The notes beneath the pieces were generated by a model that searched no databases, was not told where the DNA came from, and saw nothing but the letters and a program-made list of their open reading frames with translations. Source: Bacillota bacterium (GTDB lineage: Bacteria; Bacillota; Clostridia; Peptostreptococcales; Anaerovoracaceae). From it: 32,443 nt of DNA. Of the stretch, positions 17,458 through 30,703 are shown one piece after another. The stretch is from contig JAQXGH010000033.1 in NCBI GenBank assembly GCA_029006195.1, forward strand, positions 1 to 32,443, in the 5' to 3' direction. Within the stretch, counting starts at the first letter, position 1, and each line of letters begins with the position of its first letter. Both the position numbers and the translations under genes were made by a program.

Positions 17458-18183
17458 CTATTTTAGCAATCTTAAATCCCACTTGGAGCCGTTAAAGACA
17501 TCCAAATCAACCTTCTTCTCTCCTCCAGCAATAGAGTCTGAATATCCATCAAAAGTATACTGACAGAAAGTCCAGTCTCTTCCATCCGGCAAGTTGTCAC
17601 TGACATCAAAGTCACTGATCCAGATTCTATAATCATCATAATGACCGGAAATATATTTGCTGTAAATATATTTATTTGTATATATTATTGGCTGCATACC
17701 ATAATGATCTTCGAGTTCGGTGAGCATTTCGTCTAATATCTCATGCATCTTATCTTTTGATGGATGATCATATTCATAACTGCCATAAAACTCGACATCG
17801 ATACATGGAGGCAGCATTCCCCACGTTCTTTTAACTGTAGAAATATAATTCTGAGCCTGATCATGGCCGCTGCTATCGTAGCTTAAGAAGTGATAAGCAC
17901 TTATCCTCATAGGCGTCAGATTAGCAGCCTTCCAGTATCCTTCAAAATTTCTATCTACATAATCGGCTCCTTCGGTAGCCTTTATAAATGCAAAATCCAA
18001 ACCTTCAGAATGGAGTCCTGACCAATCAATTTCTCCCTGATATAGTGAAACATCAATGCCTTTGACATCATAATCCGTAGACTCACCCATATATATGAAT
18101 GAATAACGGATAGCGATAGCAAAGGCAAATGCCAGAATAACCATCAAAACAGTTAGAATTATCTTCTTATGTTTCTCTCCCAA
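17458..18183 (-). CDS. Membrane-anchored GH25 muramidase (lysozyme)
   Basis: Cuts the MurNAc-GlcNAc bond of peptidoglycan, outside the membrane. Residues about 8-31 form one uncleaved-looking membrane anchor after a short basic start. The GH25 fold follows: GIDVSLYQGEIDW (catalytic-face Asp at 44), FAFIKATEGADYVD, AYHFLSY, and the catalytic PCIDVEF with Asp129 and Glu131, ending with DLDVFNG. No cell-wall-binding repeats are present, so the anchor alone holds it at the membrane. The start is TTG at 18183 with AAGGGG just upstream, lying inside the methyltransferase gene (25-base overlap). Its position before the RND exporter suggests a wall-remodelling role for that exporter; this is inference. 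Confidence 0.92.
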   Translation of the reverse strand: MGEKHKKIILTVLMVILAFAFAIAIRYSFIYMGESTDYDVKGIDVSLYQGEIDWSGLHSEGLDFAFIKATEGADYVDRNFEGYWKAANLTPMRISAYHFLSYDSSGHDQAQNYISTVKRTWGMLPPCIDVEFYGSYEYDHPSKDKMHEILDEMLTELEDHYGMQPIIYTNKYIYSKYISGHYDDYRIWISDFDVSDNLPDGRDWTFCQYTFDGYSDSIAGGEKKVDLDVFNGSKWDLRLLK

Positions 18184-19088
18184 AATATCCCCTTATCAAA
18201 CCCTTGAATGGATTTATCAGAATCAGCCATTTCAAGTCTCTGCTCAGCCCAGATACAATACCTTGGATCCTTCTCGATTCCAACATAGTTTCTTGCGAGT
18301 TTTTTAGCAGTAACAGAAGTTGTTCCAGAACCCAGGAAAGGATCGAGAACAATATCTCCTCTATTCGAACTGGCTAAAATAAGCTTAGCAACTAATTTCT
18401 CAGGTTTTTGAGTCGGATGTGCAGTATTCTCAGCCATTGACCAGAACGGAACTGTGAGATCATCCCAGAAATTTGATGGACACGTATCCCTGAATCTTCC
18501 ATCATCAGTTTCTTGCCAGTCTTTAGGCTTACCATCCTGCTTATAAGGAGCAATCACGCGGCGCCTTACCTTAACATCATCAAGGTTAAAGGTATACTTT
18601 TCGCCATTAGTGGCGAACCAGATATCCTCCATACTGTTCTTCCAGTTAGCAGATGCTCCGCGTCCCTTTTCTCTTTGCCATGTGATCCTGTTTCTTAAAT
18701 TGAAATATTCACCTAAAACGCGTCCTATAATGAGGCTGCTTTCCCAATCACAGCATACATAAATGGACCCATCTTTCTTAAGCAAAGGCTTCACAGCTTC
18801 AATCCATTTCCTTGTATAGTCCTCATATTTATCAGAAGACATTTTAGAGAAAGAACTATCGTTAAAATTCTTATAAATGTTATATGGAGGATCCGCGATA
18901 ATAAGGTCAACAGACTCTTCAGGAAGCTCTCTTAGCACCTCCAACATATCTCCATTAACTGTTTTATTTAACGGCAATTCGTTCTTATATTCTCTTTTTA
19001 ACGAAGATAAAGTTAAACATCTGCTTAGATATTTCATTCCATCTTCTAACTTAGTATCTATAGTTTTATTACGTGTTGATTTAGTCAT
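18159..19088 (-). CDS. Orphan N6-adenine DNA methyltransferase (beta-type order)
   Basis: S-adenosylmethionine-dependent DNA methyltransferase. The catalytic DPPY (residues 66-69 in IIADPPYNIY) comes before the SAM-binding DPFLGSGTT (249-257), with HPTQKPEKL just ahead of the latter: the beta-class order of N6-adenine or N4-cytosine enzymes; DPPY favours adenine. The middle region is the presumed target-recognition part. I chose the ATG at 19088 (309 residues), which has GAGAAG 6 bases upstream. A longer TTG reading to 19127 would start upstream of the predicted transcript start. No restriction gene is nearby. It is the first gene of an apparent operon with the muramidase and RND exporter, and divergent to a TetR regulator. 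The recognition site cannot be read from sequence. Confidence 0.9.
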   Translation of the reverse strand: MTKSTRNKTIDTKLEDGMKYLSRCLTLSSLKREYKNELPLNKTVNGDMLEVLRELPEESVDLIIADPPYNIYKNFNDSSFSKMSSDKYEDYTRKWIEAVKPLLKKDGSIYVCCDWESSLIIGRVLGEYFNLRNRITWQREKGRGASANWKNSMEDIWFATNGEKYTFNLDDVKVRRRVIAPYKQDGKPKDWQETDDGRFRDTCPSNFWDDLTVPFWSMAENTAHPTQKPEKLVAKLILASSNRGDIVLDPFLGSGTTSVTAKKLARNYVGIEKDPRYCIWAEQRLEMADSDKSIQGFDKGIFWERNIRR

Positions 19089-19112
19089 TTTATTCTTCTC
19101 ACACAATGTTAA

Positions 19113-19141
19113 ATTGTAGCACGCCAAAAGATGTGATACAA
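19113..19141 (-). promoter_or_regulatory. Promoter of the methyltransferase-muramidase-exporter operon
   Basis: Minus strand TTGTAT (19136-19141), 17-base spacer, TACAAT (19113-19118). The transcript should start about 19106, leaving a short leader with the GAGAAG site before the ATG at 19088. It is the mirror image of the regulator's promoter. Confidence 0.7.
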
Positions 19142-20607: not shown

Positions 20608-23280
20608 TTACTTAAGATCGTACCAGTTAACACCTTCATTAAGGTCTGCCTTTAGATCAACCTTCATTTCCAGTGCTGATTCCATATTTTCTACCAATAA
20701 TTTCTTAACGATTTCCTTTTCATCAGGATAAGTATTGATGATAAGTTCATCGTGGATCTGTAAGATCAGCCTAGATTTAAGATTATTTTCACGAAGAGCC
20801 TTGTCCACCTTTATCATAGCGATTTTGATAATATCAGCAGCGCTACCCTGAACAGGTGTATTCATCGCAAGTCTTTCTCCAACCTGCCTAACCATATACT
20901 GAGAAGCCTTAATTTCCTTTATGAAGCGTTTTCTTCCCATAATAGTGGTTACATATCCATTAGCCTTACAGAATTCCACAGAATCATCCATAAACTTTTT
21001 AACAGCTGCATGTTTAAGGAAATATGTTGAAATGTAGTTTTCTGCGTCTTTTCTTGTTATATGAAGCTCAGTTGATAAGCCAAAAGCGCTCATGCCATAT
21101 ATTACGCCGAAGTTTACAGCCTTTGCACGACTACGTTCTTCGAGAGTGATCTGATCTTCAGGCACACCTAAAACGTTAGCAGCTGTAGCTCTATGAATAT
21201 CTTCGCCGTTATTAAATGCATCAATAAGGACCTGATCGCCTGACATGTGCGCGAGAACTCTAAGCTCGATCTGTGAATAGTCGGCGCCAAGGAGCACGCA
21301 TTCTTCACTTTCTGGAACAAAGGCCTTACGCAGCTTTCTTCCAAGCTCTTGTCTAATAGGAATATTCTGAAGGTTCGGCTCTGTACAGCTGAGTCTACCT
21401 GTAGCAGCTACTGTTTGCTGGAAATGAGCATGAATCTTACCATCCTGTGAATTGATAAGAGGAATCAGTCCGTCAATATAAGTACTCTTAAGTTTAGAAA
21501 GTGTTCTATATTCCAAAACTGCCGGAACGATCGGATGATCGTTTTTGATTTTTTCCAAAACTTCAGCGCTGGTTGAGTATCCCCTCTTTGTCTTTTTGCC
21601 ATGAGGAAGCTGAAGTTTTTCGAAAAGAATATCTCCGAGCTGTATAGGTGAGTTGATGTTGAATTCTTCACCTGCCATTTCATGAACAGAAGCAGCCAGC
21701 TTATCGATTTCTTCTGAAAGCACCTTACCAAATTCAGTTAAATAGCCGCTATCAGCCTTGAAGCCTTCCTTCTCCATTCCGGCCATGACTTTGATAAGAG
21801 GCAGTTCGATTTCATATAAAACTTCTGTAAGCCCTTCATCTGAGATTTTGGCCTTCTGAATCTGTGCCATATTAAGTGAAGCAGCGCATAACTTTTTGCC
21901 ATATTCTGCAAAAGCTGCAGAGTTATCATCAAATAAACTTATCTGACCATTTGCAGCCAGAATATCCTTTTCACTTTCTATAGAGATGTGAAGATATTCG
22001 TTAGCAAGTGCCGTAATATCATAATTACTTCTACCTGAATCCAGGACGTACTGTGCTATAGCAGTATCAAAAGAAGTATCTAACTTCTGAGCGCCAAGAG
22101 ACATAAGCATAAAGTAATCATCTATGAGATCATGACCTACAAATGAAATATCCAGATCATCAAGCCATTCGCCAGCCTTAGCTACAGCTTCTCCCTTAAT
22201 ATAGTAGAAGTTCTCATTATTTATAAGTGCAATACCGTCAATTACAGGCTTATCAACATGGCTGTTATCGCCAAAAACTTTGATCGCAGTGTCTCCTGTA
22301 ATTGAAATGCTCTTAAGGCCATCTTCATCTGAAATAATTGTTTCGGTAAGCTTATCCACGTCACAGATAATTTCCATCTCTGCCATTGGCTCAGCTTTTA
22401 CTGAATTCGAAACACCGCTCTTACTTAGTTTACTTAAGAAACGATTGAATTCAAGCTTAGTATAAAGCTCAATAAGCTTATCGTAATCAGGATCTTCAAT
22501 TTTATATTCTTCAATATCTATGTCCATAGGAACATTAACATTGATTGTAGCCAGCTTCTTGCTGAGCATCGCCAGCTGCGCATTGTCCTCAACTTTCTTC
22601 TTGAGACCCGCTGGCTTAACTGTATCAACATCCCTGATAATATTCTCTACGCTGCCGTACTGCTGAATAAGTTTAGTCGCAGTCTTATCGCCAATGCCTG
22701 GAATACCAGGAATGTTATCCGATGAATCACCAGCCAGCCCCTTGTAATCGATAAGCTGAAGAGGTTCGAAACCGTAAGCCTGACAGAATGAATCGTGATC
22801 ATATAAATCAAAATCTGTCACACCACGTTTAGTGTAAATGATTTTAGTAATATCAGTAGCAAGCTGCAGCTGGTCTCTATCTCCAGTTACAATTATAGGT
22901 TCCAGGCCCAAAGCTTCGGCCTTTCTGGCAACAGTACCGATTATATCGTCTGCTTCAAAACCTTCAAACTCTGTTCTGCTAATCTTAAGAGCATCGAGCA
23001 CGTCCTTAAGAAGCGGTATCTGCATAGCGAGTTCAGGTGGCATTTTCTTACGCCCAGCCTTATACTCTTCGTAAGCCTTGTGTCTGAAAGTTGGAGCTTT
23101 CATATCAAACGCTATGAGCATATATGAAGGTTCGTAGTCTTTCTTGATCTTTTCGATCATATTGATAAAACCAAAAATTGCATGAGTGTATATTCCCTCA
23201 TTTGTTATCATAGGGGTCCTCATTGCATAAAAAGCTCTATTGATTAAACTGTTACCATCTATAATTGTAATTCTTTTCAT
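20608..23280 (-). CDS. polA: DNA polymerase I (5' nuclease plus polymerase; proofreading domain degenerate)
   Basis: Fills gaps and removes RNA primers in replication and repair. 890 residues. The N-terminal 5'-3' nuclease (about 1-290) has the acidic sites IDGNSLINRAFYA, EADDIIGT, VTGDRDQLQL and GDSSDNIPGIPGIG. The middle domain (about 300-480) occupies the place of the 3'-5' exonuclease, but the DxE motif and the YxxxD motif are not recognisable, so proofreading is probably lost, as in Bacillus and Thermus enzymes. The polymerase part has motif A DYSQIELRVLAH, motif B RAKAVNFGVIYG and motif C QIHDELI. The ATG shares one base with the cdd stop (TAATG), so translation is coupled to cdd. Confidence 0.96.
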   Translation of the reverse strand: MKRITIIDGNSLINRAFYAMRTPMITNEGIYTHAIFGFINMIEKIKKDYEPSYMLIAFDMKAPTFRHKAYEEYKAGRKKMPPELAMQIPLLKDVLDALKISRTEFEGFEADDIIGTVARKAEALGLEPIIVTGDRDQLQLATDITKIIYTKRGVTDFDLYDHDSFCQAYGFEPLQLIDYKGLAGDSSDNIPGIPGIGDKTATKLIQQYGSVENIIRDVDTVKPAGLKKKVEDNAQLAMLSKKLATINVNVPMDIDIEEYKIEDPDYDKLIELYTKLEFNRFLSKLSKSGVSNSVKAEPMAEMEIICDVDKLTETIISDEDGLKSISITGDTAIKVFGDNSHVDKPVIDGIALINNENFYYIKGEAVAKAGEWLDDLDISFVGHDLIDDYFMLMSLGAQKLDTSFDTAIAQYVLDSGRSNYDITALANEYLHISIESEKDILAANGQISLFDDNSAAFAEYGKKLCAASLNMAQIQKAKISDEGLTEVLYEIELPLIKVMAGMEKEGFKADSGYLTEFGKVLSEEIDKLAASVHEMAGEEFNINSPIQLGDILFEKLQLPHGKKTKRGYSTSAEVLEKIKNDHPIVPAVLEYRTLSKLKSTYIDGLIPLINSQDGKIHAHFQQTVAATGRLSCTEPNLQNIPIRQELGRKLRKAFVPESEECVLLGADYSQIELRVLAHMSGDQVLIDAFNNGEDIHRATAANVLGVPEDQITLEERSRAKAVNFGVIYGMSAFGLSTELHITRKDAENYISTYFLKHAAVKKFMDDSVEFCKANGYVTTIMGRKRFIKEIKASQYMVRQVGERLAMNTPVQGSAADIIKIAMIKVDKALRENNLKSRLILQIHDELIINTYPDEKEIVKKLLVENMESALEMKVDLKADLNEGVNWYDLK

Positions 23281-23705
23281 TATTTATCTCTTTCTGGTTT
23301 AAGAACAAATCCCATAGGCATTAATTCATCAAGTGATCTGATGTTAATTACCCCGTTATTTTTTGTTATAACAGCAATGTGTGGTGAAAATTCTAACATA
23401 AATTGCCTGCAAATTCCACAAGGAACAGCTTCTTCATCACCTGCTGAAATTGCTATTGCTGCAAATTCGAAGCCTCTATTAATTGCTCCATCTGATATAG
23501 CGCATGCGAAAGCAGATCTCTCAGCACATATAGTTGCACCGTATGATGAGTTTTCGATATTTACGCCTGTGTAGATTTTTTCGCTGTTATCTTTAACAGC
23601 TAAAAGAGCAGCGCCTACATTAAATTTAGAAAAAGGCGCATAAGCGTTTTTGCGAGCGCCTTCAGCCTTTGCATATAAATTTTCACTTATAGCTTTAATA
23701 TCCAT
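23280..23705 (-). CDS. cdd: Cytidine deaminase
   Basis: Deaminates cytidine and deoxycytidine to uridine forms in pyrimidine salvage. It is 141 residues, the size of the homotetrameric class. Zinc and catalytic residues are intact: NIENSSYGATICAERSA (C-A-E near 55-57) and PCGICRQFMLEF (PCxxC near 95-99). The N-terminal KNAYAPFSKFNVGAALL is typical. A good AGAGGG site precedes the ATG. It follows the FNT gene by 20 bases and overlaps the polA start by one base. Confidence 0.95.
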   Translation of the reverse strand: MDIKAISENLYAKAEGARKNAYAPFSKFNVGAALLAVKDNSEKIYTGVNIENSSYGATICAERSAFACAISDGAINRGFEFAAIAISAGDEEAVPCGICRQFMLEFSPHIAVITKNNGVINIRSLDELMPMGFVLKPERDK

Positions 23706-23725
23706 AATATATCCCTCTAAAAATG

Positions 23726-24544
23726 CTAAGCTTTTCTATGGATAAGCCAATAGAACATTGCAACAAAACCGCCACCGCCGACAATGTTACCAAGTGTTAC
23801 AGGTATAAGATTTTTGACTACAAAGCCATAAACATTAAGCCCTGAAGTGTCCAGCGAGAGCAAATTAACATAGGCGTCGTTTTGTGCAGCGAGAATTCCG
23901 GCAGGAATAAAGTACATGTTAGCAACACTGTGTTCGAAACCGGAAAGTACGAATACCATAATTACGAACCACATTGCCAGAATTTTGCCTGCAGCATTGT
24001 CAGCACCTGTTGCCATCCAGACAGCCAGGCATACGAGCCAGTTACACAGAACGCCAAGGATAAATGCTCTACCGAATGAAAGATTACATTTGCCAATAGC
24101 AGCTTTGACAGTCATTGCACCCAGAAGTCCATCGCCAGTGTCGAGCTGACCTGACCAGTGAATGCAAAGCACAATAATCATAGCCCCAACGAAGTTACCT
24201 AAATATACAATAGCCCAATTCTTGAAAACACCTGATAATTTAATTTTCTTATCAGCAACACCAGCAAACATCATACAGTTGCCAGTGAAGAGCTCAGCGC
24301 CGCAAAGTACAACAAGCATAAGGCCAACCGGGAATACCATGCCAGCTACAAATTTACCCAGGCCAACTGTTGCCGGATTTGAAGTAAGGTTGAATGAAGC
24401 AAGTGTCGAACCTTCTGCTCCAAAGGCTATAAACGCTCCCGCTAAGACAGCCAGTAAAAATAGTTTTGTTACGCTTGAGTTTGCTTTCGCGATGGATGAA
24501 TCTGATACTTTCTCAAGAATTTCACTAGATGTAAGAACTTTCAC
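23726..24544 (-). CDS. Formate/nitrite-type (FNT) channel protein
   Basis: Pentameric membrane channel of the FNT family that moves formate, nitrite or related small anions. 272 residues with six membrane segments. Both family signatures are visible: CGAELFTGNCMM near 81-92, and GFEHSVANMYFIPAGI near 200-215 containing the central pore histidine. A conserved Lys sits in the AIGKCNLSF loop. FocA, NirC and HSC subtypes cannot be told apart safely. In a fermentative anaerobe formate is the likeliest substrate (inference). The start codon is GTG at 24544 with AAAGGAG 10 bases upstream. It begins only about 20 bases after the predicted 6S RNA 3' end, so its transcript may begin at the 6S promoter. 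It leads an FNT-cdd-polA-coaE operon. Confidence 0.92.
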   Translation of the reverse strand: MKVLTSSEILEKVSDSSIAKANSSVTKLFLLAVLAGAFIAFGAEGSTLASFNLTSNPATVGLGKFVAGMVFPVGLMLVVLCGAELFTGNCMMFAGVADKKIKLSGVFKNWAIVYLGNFVGAMIIVLCIHWSGQLDTGDGLLGAMTVKAAIGKCNLSFGRAFILGVLCNWLVCLAVWMATGADNAAGKILAMWFVIMVFVLSGFEHSVANMYFIPAGILAAQNDAYVNLLSLDTSGLNVYGFVVKNLIPVTLGNIVGGGGFVAMFYWLIHRKA

Positions 24545-24563
24545 TTTATTATTTCTCCTTTAA

Positions 24564-24752
24564 AAAATAATTCCCGACGTGCCGTTAGGGATATAATTCA
24601 CGCCCTAACCTAAGTTAGGTGGGTACCCTGTCTTTGACTTCTGTCTTCCTGTACAAGCAGGCCTGACATATTTCAAATGAACAATCGGATTCCCTATGTG
24701 ATAATGTAGGTTGAATTATATTACCCATTACGAACACATCAGGAGATGTTGT
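24564..24752 (-). ncRNA. ssrS: 6S RNA (ssrS/bsrA-type), predicted
   Basis: Regulatory RNA that mimics an open promoter and binds the housekeeping RNA polymerase. I found it by folding the gene-less stretch by eye on the minus strand. The closing stem pairs TCCTGATGTG (24735-24744) with CACGTCGGGA (24572-24581), 10 pairs including two G-U. The second stem pairs 24712-24726 with 24588-24600, 13 pairs around a 2-base bulge. A large central bubble follows. Its 3' side holds the hairpin CCTAAC-TTAG-GTTAGG (24604-24619) in a CCCACCT context, as in known 6S RNAs. The terminal rod continues with TTTGA/TCAAA, TGTC/GACA and CCTG/CAGG and a 6-base loop. The length of about 189 bases fits the family, a promoter is correctly placed, and a T run ends it. 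Confidence 0.8.
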
Positions 24753-24758
24753 ACCTAT

Positions 24759-24787
24759 ATTCTACATCTATCTTTTATTCATTTCAA
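24759..24787 (-). promoter_or_regulatory. Promoter of the 6S RNA
   Basis: Minus strand TTGAAA (24782-24787), 17-base spacer, TAGAAT (24759-24764). It predicts a start near 24752, which coincides with the 5' end expected from the RNA fold. It is probably also the main promoter for the FNT-cdd-polA-coaE genes, since no other fits between the 6S RNA and the FNT start. Confidence 0.7.
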
Positions 24788-24797
24788 CAACCGTAGC

Positions 24798-24830
24798 AAA
24801 AAAATAAAAAGGACTGATTAAAACAGTCCC
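24798..24830 (-). terminator. Terminator after the YebC-family gene
   Basis: Minus strand GGACTG, 7-base loop, CAGTCC (24824-24829 with 24811-24816), then a T-rich run of 13 bases broken by one A. It starts about 13 bases after the stop and isolates the YebC gene from the 6S promoter. Confidence 0.88.
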
Positions 24831-24842
24831 TTATATTATATC

Positions 24843-25574
24843 TTATTCGATTTCGTCTAAATCAACACTGCAGTTGTGATGAACTTTCTGAACGTCATCA
24901 TTTTCTTCAAGGATGTCAATCATCTTCTTAAGTCTCTTAAGATCCTTTTCATCCTTAGGTGCAGCTTCCATTGATGGAACGAATTCAACTTCTGCTTCTA
25001 CGAAAGCATAACCTGCATCAGTAAGTGCTCCATGAACGTCATTGAATGCTGCAGGTTCAGTATAGATTACGAAGCTGTCTTCGTTAACTTCCATATCATC
25101 AGCGCCTGCTTCGAGAGCTGTTTCCATAAGTGCATCTTCGTCGATTTCGTCAGTCTTTTCGATTACGAGAACGCCCTTTCTTGAGAACATGTATGATACG
25201 CAGCCCTGAGTACCCAGGTTACCACCGTGCTTATCGAATGATGATCTTACTGCAGCCGTAGTTCTGTTAGTGTTATCTGTAAGTGCTTCTACGATAACAG
25301 CTACACCGCCGATACCATAACCTTCGAATGAAAGTTCAGTATAAGTAGCGCCTTCGAGTTCGCCAGTACCCTTCTTGATAGCTCTCTTGATATTTTCGTT
25401 AGGCATACCGATAGCTTTAGCCTTTTCTATAGCAACTCTCAGTGTTGCGTTATATTCAGGATCACCACCTGCCTTAGCTGCAACTATGATCTGTCTTCCA
25501 TACTTAGTGAACATTGCAGAACGCTTGGAGTCCTGCGCTGCCTTTCTTCCTGCAATTGTACCGTGTCTTCCCAT
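24843..25574 (-). CDS. YebC/TACO1-family protein (translation or transcription factor)
   Basis: A 243-residue YebC-family protein. Members were long annotated as transcriptional regulators (PmpR); relatives, including mitochondrial TACO1, act in translation, for example of proline-rich stretches. The N-terminal GRHGTIAGRKAAQDSKRSAMFTK block (residues 2-24) replaces the common AGHSKWANIKHKK form. The rest is canonical: GMPNENIKRAIKKGTG near 57-72, YEGYG-like FEGYGIGGVAVIVEALTDN, and GGNLGTQGCVSYMF. AAGGAGGTG lies upstream of the ATG. The gene is alone between its own promoter and terminator. The choice between DNA and ribosome as its target cannot be made from the sequence. Confidence 0.93.
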   Translation of the reverse strand: MGRHGTIAGRKAAQDSKRSAMFTKYGRQIIVAAKAGGDPEYNATLRVAIEKAKAIGMPNENIKRAIKKGTGELEGATYTELSFEGYGIGGVAVIVEALTDNTNRTTAAVRSSFDKHGGNLGTQGCVSYMFSRKGVLVIEKTDEIDEDALMETALEAGADDMEVNEDSFVIYTEPAAFNDVHGALTDAGYAFVEAEVEFVPSMEAAPKDEKDLKRLKKMIDILEENDDVQKVHHNCSVDLDEIE

Positions 25575-30067: not shown

Positions 30068-30703
30068 TTGAAAAGCACAATTACTAAAGAGAAATACCTG
30101 GAAATTTATGAAATGCTTAACAAAGTCTCACCTGTAGATTATGACTGTGGCAGATTATGTGAAGCGGCATGCTGTACATGTAACTTTGAACCCGATGACA
30201 TAGAATTCACTGCAGAAGGTGACGAAAATGCCGATAACTATATGGGCCTCTATCTCCTTCCCGGCGAAGAGAAGGTTTATGAGGACGACTTCGGTTCAAA
30301 CGAAGCTCACGATAACTGGATAAAATGGGGATCTATCAGAGCTGAAGATTATGAATACCCTGAAAGCTGGACTGGACGCGTTTACTTCATTGAATGTAAA
30401 ACGGCACCTAAGTGTAATCGCGAATATAGACCTATTCAGTGTCGCACTTTCCCTCTGGCTCCTCACATATCCGAAGACGACACCTTCCATGTAATAGTTA
30501 ATTGCGACCTTCTCCCTTATGAATGTCCGCTTCTTGAAAGTGCTTTCAATGATGACGGAGAATATGAACTCAACCAGGATTTTGTTGATGTAACATGGCA
30601 GGCTTGGAACGAGCTTGTTAAGGACCCTCTCATTTATGATCTAATAAAAATGGACTCCGATTACAGGATCGAAGATGATGCTGAAATCATAATCATGAAA
30701 TAA
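30068..30703 (+). CDS. YkgJ-like cysteine-cluster protein, function unknown
   Basis: A 211-residue soluble acidic protein I do not recognise beyond a YkgJ-like cysteine pattern. Cysteines sit in three groups: C27, C31, C35, C36 and C38 (CGRLCEAACCTC); C110, C116 and C125 (ECKTAPKCNREYRPIQCRTFP); and C146 and C153. The RxxQCRTFPL element matches the metal or iron-sulfur cluster proteins of the YkgJ/Fli family type. No membrane segment or signal peptide is present. The start is TTG at 30068 with AAGGCGG upstream; the next ATG (codon 16) has no ribosome site. It is divergent from the activase gene with adjacent promoters, so a role linked to iron-sulfur handling is possible but unproven. Confidence 0.75.
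   Translation: MKSTITKEKYLEIYEMLNKVSPVDYDCGRLCEAACCTCNFEPDDIEFTAEGDENADNYMGLYLLPGEEKVYEDDFGSNEAHDNWIKWGSIRAEDYEYPESWTGRVYFIECKTAPKCNREYRPIQCRTFPLAPHISEDDTFHVIVNCDLLPYECPLLESAFNDDGEYELNQDFVDVTWQAWNELVKDPLIYDLIKMDSDYRIEDDAEIIIMK

Follow-up and report, generated by a model that had tools for sequence, protein, structure and literature searches.

6S RNA mimics an open promoter and binds RNA polymerase that carries the housekeeping sigma factor, thereby restraining the polymerase as growth slows, and synthesis of a short pRNA by the polymerase, templated by the central bubble, releases it again. Termination of the Escherichia coli 6S unit is reportedly Rho-dependent, as the title of one study puts it. 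According to another study, E. coli ssrS and ygfA are transcribed as a dicistronic RNA, which is processed to the mature 6S RNA (PMC7641849). For lactic acid bacteria a 6S neighbourhood is described that is conserved at the family level (PMC8414754). Here, we describe a 6S RNA locus in a stretch of 32,443 nucleotides from a bacterium of the family Anaerovoracaceae, which is referred to as the window at its full length. Compared to RF00013, the family of the Bacillus subtilis 6S-1 type, the locus is alike in its predicted length, the rod shape, the central bubble, the hairpin on the 3' side, a sigma-70-type promoter-like site and the conserved core. However, the closing stem is followed almost immediately by a T run, and no separate terminator hairpin was found behind it. 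Conservation of the neighbourhood at the family level is shared with the 6S RNA of lactic acid bacteria, but the neighbouring genes are not those reported there or in E. coli. Similar to ssrS-ygfA, the downstream gene is co-directional and linked to formate or one-carbon metabolism, although it is not ygfA that lies directly downstream, but a gene for a channel of the formate/nitrite transporter (FNT) type. 6S RNA itself is a long-known family, and it is the 6S-FNT neighbourhood and the 3' end of this locus that merit a test at the bench.

A search of the whole window with Rfam cmscan at the gathering threshold gave two matches in all, one tRNA and RF00013. The latter lies at 24748-24567 on the minus strand and scores 82.4 bits (gathering score 46.4; E 5.1e-15), and positions 1-187 of the 187 positions of the model are covered. 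A sequence-only reading of this DNA had proposed a 6S RNA gene here and had named the Infernal/Rfam search as its check, which thus was passed over the full length of the model. Moreover, the opposite case of a clear 6S match elsewhere and none here did not arise, since the match at this locus is the single one in the 1,691,964 bases searched, and no second copy was found in this genome (1.69 Mb; assembly 85% complete). We are therefore nearly certain that 24748-24567 is the 6S RNA gene of this genome. As the match exceeds the gathering score by far, an Rfam-based annotation pipeline is expected to pick up the gene. As a 6S gene it extends the annotation of a lineage that has received little study.

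The minus-strand RNA folds with -61.0 kcal/mol, compared to a mean of -43.7 (sd 3.9) for shuffled sequences, which corresponds to z = -4.43, and none of 200 shuffles folded as well. The plus strand as RNA strand was rejected, as its fold is weaker (z -2.27, four of 200 shuffles as good) and a mirror of the minus-strand fold. The structure is that of a 6S RNA, a rod with a closing stem, a large central bubble and a terminal stem that is supported by covariation. In the minimum-energy fold the closing stem is formed by 24734..24744 as 5' strand and 24572..24582 as 3' strand, a helix that is backed by covariation in 32 genus members. The second stem consists of 13 pairs (3 + 10) with a 2-base bulge, a CCUAAC/GUUAGG hairpin is present on the 3' side of the central bubble, and a terminal rod lies beyond. 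All helices listed in the sequence-only reading, which gave no strand but whose promoter and fold are those of the minus strand, are thus recovered; only the closing stem has 11 pairs instead of the 10 that were claimed. The T run behind the fold (24567-24562) and the promoter (24787-24759) are also present on this strand as it had described them, and its view that the stretch is without coding potential is in line with the finding that no ORF of at least 100 aa overlaps 24564-24787, one plus-strand ORF stopping at 24563.

The putative promoter TTGAAA-N17-TAGAAT is of the sigma-70 type, with the -35 box at 24787-24782, a spacer of 17 bases and the -10 box at 24764-24759. Only 0.5% of the other scoring windows sampled in the same locus reach an equally high value. 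The start of the RNA is expected seven bases past the -10 box, near A24752, and an end near 24562 would give it a length of about 191 nt. The motif TATAATTCAACCTAC (24706..24720, minus strand) at the 5' margin of the central bubble is nearly invariant in 32 members of the genus and is the likely template of the pRNA, which is predicted to begin with GUUGAAUUAUA; copying probably starts from the CAAC within the motif. Like known 6S RNAs, the RNA of about 190 nt would bind and restrain the housekeeping RNA polymerase, and the pRNA copied at the edge of the bubble would free it from the polymerase again.

6S RNA genes occur in one to two copies per genome and are kept in relatives, and the same applies here, with one copy in this genome and a match in 41 of the 49 genomes of the genus, 40 of them over the cut-off. 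The remaining eight gave no match, and none over the cut-off in a laxer search either; these are draft assemblies, in which absence is unproven. In the family sample 104 of 148 genomes have a 6S match (97 over the cut-off), and in the order 215 of 247 (208 over the cut-off). One genome of the order (G304, contig C41) carries two tandem matches at 57334-57514 and 57524-57704, which are separated by 9 bases on the same strand. Genus and family together gave 83 usable loci, which removal of near-identical ones reduced to 75, among them 32 genus members. These 32 were aligned by sequence alone, and RNAalifold applied to the alignment gave 45 pairs, with pairing in 96.9% of the cells. Changes on both sides were seen in 21 of the 45 pairs, compared to a mean of 11.9 after shuffling, the covariation score was 0.312 against 0.126, and none of 500 shuffles was as high on any of five measures, a comparison in which the kinship of the sequences favours the consensus. 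When the partners were slid by 1-3 columns, pairing fell to 36-45%; here, the consensus structure is favoured over the slid versions as it was drawn from the same alignment.

All genes of the neighbourhood are encoded on the minus strand in the order yebC, 6S, FNT, cdd and polA. The upstream gene, a member of the YebC/PmpR family (24843..25574; NF001030, 301.2 bits, cut-off 243), is followed by a terminator-like hairpin of nine pairs and then TTATTTTTTT (24808..24832). The gene for the formate/nitrite transporter (23726..24544; PF01226) matches TIGR00790 with 247.1 bits at a cut-off of 232.3, and the protein is therefore over the threshold of this FNT subfamily, but under that of TIGR04060, FocA proper. 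It starts with GTG at 24544, 22 bases from the end of the 6S model and ten bases past AAAGGAG (24555..24561), the probable ribosome-binding site. Then cdd (23280-23705) and polA (20608-23280) follow in the same direction, an order that is also found in some relatives. Among 35 FNT stretches from 30 genomes of the genus, this one included, nine have FNT-cdd-polA, six combine FNT with polA but gave no match for cdd, in two FNT and cdd stand where the stretch ends, and 18 have neither cdd nor polA, many of the latter being short or cut by contig ends.

The FNT gene is a frequent companion of 6S RNA in the genus. It is present in 37 of the 41 genomes with 6S RNA, and in all 29 genomes that have both on one contig it lies downstream and on the same strand. 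In 21 of these it directly adjoins 6S RNA, defined as less than 130 bases between the 6S end and the start of the FNT Pfam match and including one FNT remnant (G016) and one weak 6S match at a contig end (G045), and in the other eight it is 1.7-2.7 kb away. The remnant (G016:C81:3397-3495) sits just behind 6S RNA and comprises only the last part of the gene with the stop. Two of the eight distant cases were examined, in which htpG (G056) or another gene (G004) is found in between. Two loci (L028, with htpG as next gene, and L023) show the inverted repeat TTAGCACTC-N9-GAGTGCTAA between 6S RNA and the next gene, which we take to be CIRCE-like. In the other 145 genomes of the family, 101 have 6S RNA, 70 of these also FNT, and 23 have both on one contig: eleven are adjacent (from nine genera), six are 0.8-3.4 kb apart, two are divergent at about 200 bases, and four are farther away. 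The back-to-back arrangement with about 200 bases in between is that of G135 and G192, both of genus g86. Outside the family, no close 6S-FNT pair was seen by eye among the matches listed for the 247 genomes of the order. Furthermore, 29 loci of related FNT genes were collected, and in three of the 20 scanned with Rfam a 6S RNA is located upstream on the FNT strand; these are probably the same records as G209, G164 and G082, which have already been counted.

Past the closing stem follow ATTA, the six Ts of the T run ATTATTTTTT, and then directly the AAAGGAG mentioned above. At least four Ts within 14 bases of the last G of the closing stem are found in 75 of 85 loci of the family (all 41 of the genus and 44 of 102 others, picked as best-scoring or for an FNT gene nearby), whereas among the 18 loci taken from 15 genomes in the order's other families there are four (Fisher p 6e-8, not corrected for shared ancestry). 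Behind 6S RNA, a terminator hairpin of its own with a T run was found in none of the 20 genus loci with adjacent FNT and in three of the 21 other genus loci, in two of eleven family loci with adjacent FNT and in eight of 33 other family loci, compared to ten of 18 loci outside the family, a comparison that likewise takes no account of ancestry and is based on a crude terminator finder, which flagged L004 but not its near-twin L003. The T runs and the missing separate hairpins together fit a closing stem that also serves as terminator. With the T run behind it, the closing stem would terminate the 6S RNA, and polymerases reading past this end would make an FNT-cdd-polA mRNA, by which the gene of the FNT channel would be tied to the 6S promoter. 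We lean, by a modest degree, towards this combination of an intrinsic terminator with read-through into the downstream genes.

The 22 bases between the end of the 6S model and the FNT start are too few for a promoter, which leaves three origins for FNT transcription: the 6S promoter, a site further upstream, or one inside the 6S gene. From 24759 down to 22967, which is already inside polA, there is no minus-strand site with at least nine of the 12 promoter positions. With a hand-entered matrix, weaker promoter-like sites score 8.2 bits inside the 6S gene (CTGATG-16-TATAAT) and 6-8 bits inside FNT and cdd. As there is only this weaker site inside 6S RNA, read-through from the 6S promoter appears to be the likeliest source of FNT expression. 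A wider and clearly more tentative idea is that the 6S RNA of this family is a built-in attenuator with the closing stem as terminator, in which the share of read-through would set the expression of FNT, cdd and polA, so that an inhibitor of the polymerase and a fermentation channel would come from one promoter.

The strongest alternative accepts the 6S RNA, but gives FNT a promoter of its own, perhaps CTGATG-16-TATAAT. A transcript from there would lack the 5' strand of the closing stem, would hence form no terminator and would run into FNT. This site, with its -10 box at 24720-24715, ranks third in a scan of 22900-24860 and is the best one in the interval from the 6S promoter to FNT, and reading by eye the TATAAT is kept in 25 of the 32 genus rows. 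However, these bases also belong to an RNA helix and to the likely pRNA template, and this accounts for their conservation. The other seven rows have CATAAT or TGTAAT, and TTTAAT, GTTAAT and similar variants occur in the wider family, which shows that the -10 box as such is not kept; moreover, the -35 box is poor with three of six matches. We therefore give a separate FNT promoter roughly one chance in four.

Less probable still is that 6S RNA is processed from a yebC-6S-FNT transcript and has no promoter of its own. The end of yebC is at most 300 bases upstream of 6S RNA in 30 of 38 genus loci with enough sequence and less than 30 bases in ten, and where only 6-30 bases are left, 6S RNA may be processed from a longer transcript or its promoter may overlap yebC. 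In addition, a promoter of the top 5% at the expected distance is found in only nine of 39 loci in the genus and in 12 of 43 in the family versus 12 of 18 loci outside the family, loci with too little upstream sequence having been left out and the scoring matrix being hand-entered and used for this comparison between groups only. A strong promoter is thus the minority state in the genus, and the window belongs to that minority. Because of its strong promoter-like site at 6S RNA and the terminator-like hairpin with T run after yebC, processing is unlikely in this genome, although it may hold for relatives. Finally, a cis-acting leader or riboswitch of FNT that merely resembles 6S RNA would suit the position directly ahead of FNT and the stem whose T run borders the ribosome-binding site, but can practically be dismissed, since RF00013 is matched at full length with no other Rfam family here, and in some relatives the gene behind 6S RNA is htpG or a different one, FNT being located further downstream or on another contig.

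No published report of a 6S-FNT unit was found among the literature matches listed, in a search whose scope left out most subscription journals. In full texts, "6S RNA" and "formate transporter" co-occur in one paper, at unrelated places, and no paper in the full-text literature searched has "6S RNA" together with "Anaerovoracaceae". If the reading as an operon is true, the locus would join E. coli ssrS-ygfA as another case of 6S RNA being co-expressed with a gene that is linked to formate or one-carbon metabolism, and formate traffic would be tied to the control of RNA polymerase by growth phase. As FocA is proposed to re-import formate in stationary-phase E. coli (PMC11841067), we infer that a link between 6S RNA and FNT would make sense. 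Elsewhere in the window, a gene similar to those of adenine-specific DNA methyltransferases is located at 18159-19127 on the minus strand, with a best NCBIfam E of 2.4e-47, but a match below the curated cut-offs. A cysteine-rich ORF of 211 aa without Pfam match at E 0.001 is present at 30068-30703 on the plus strand.
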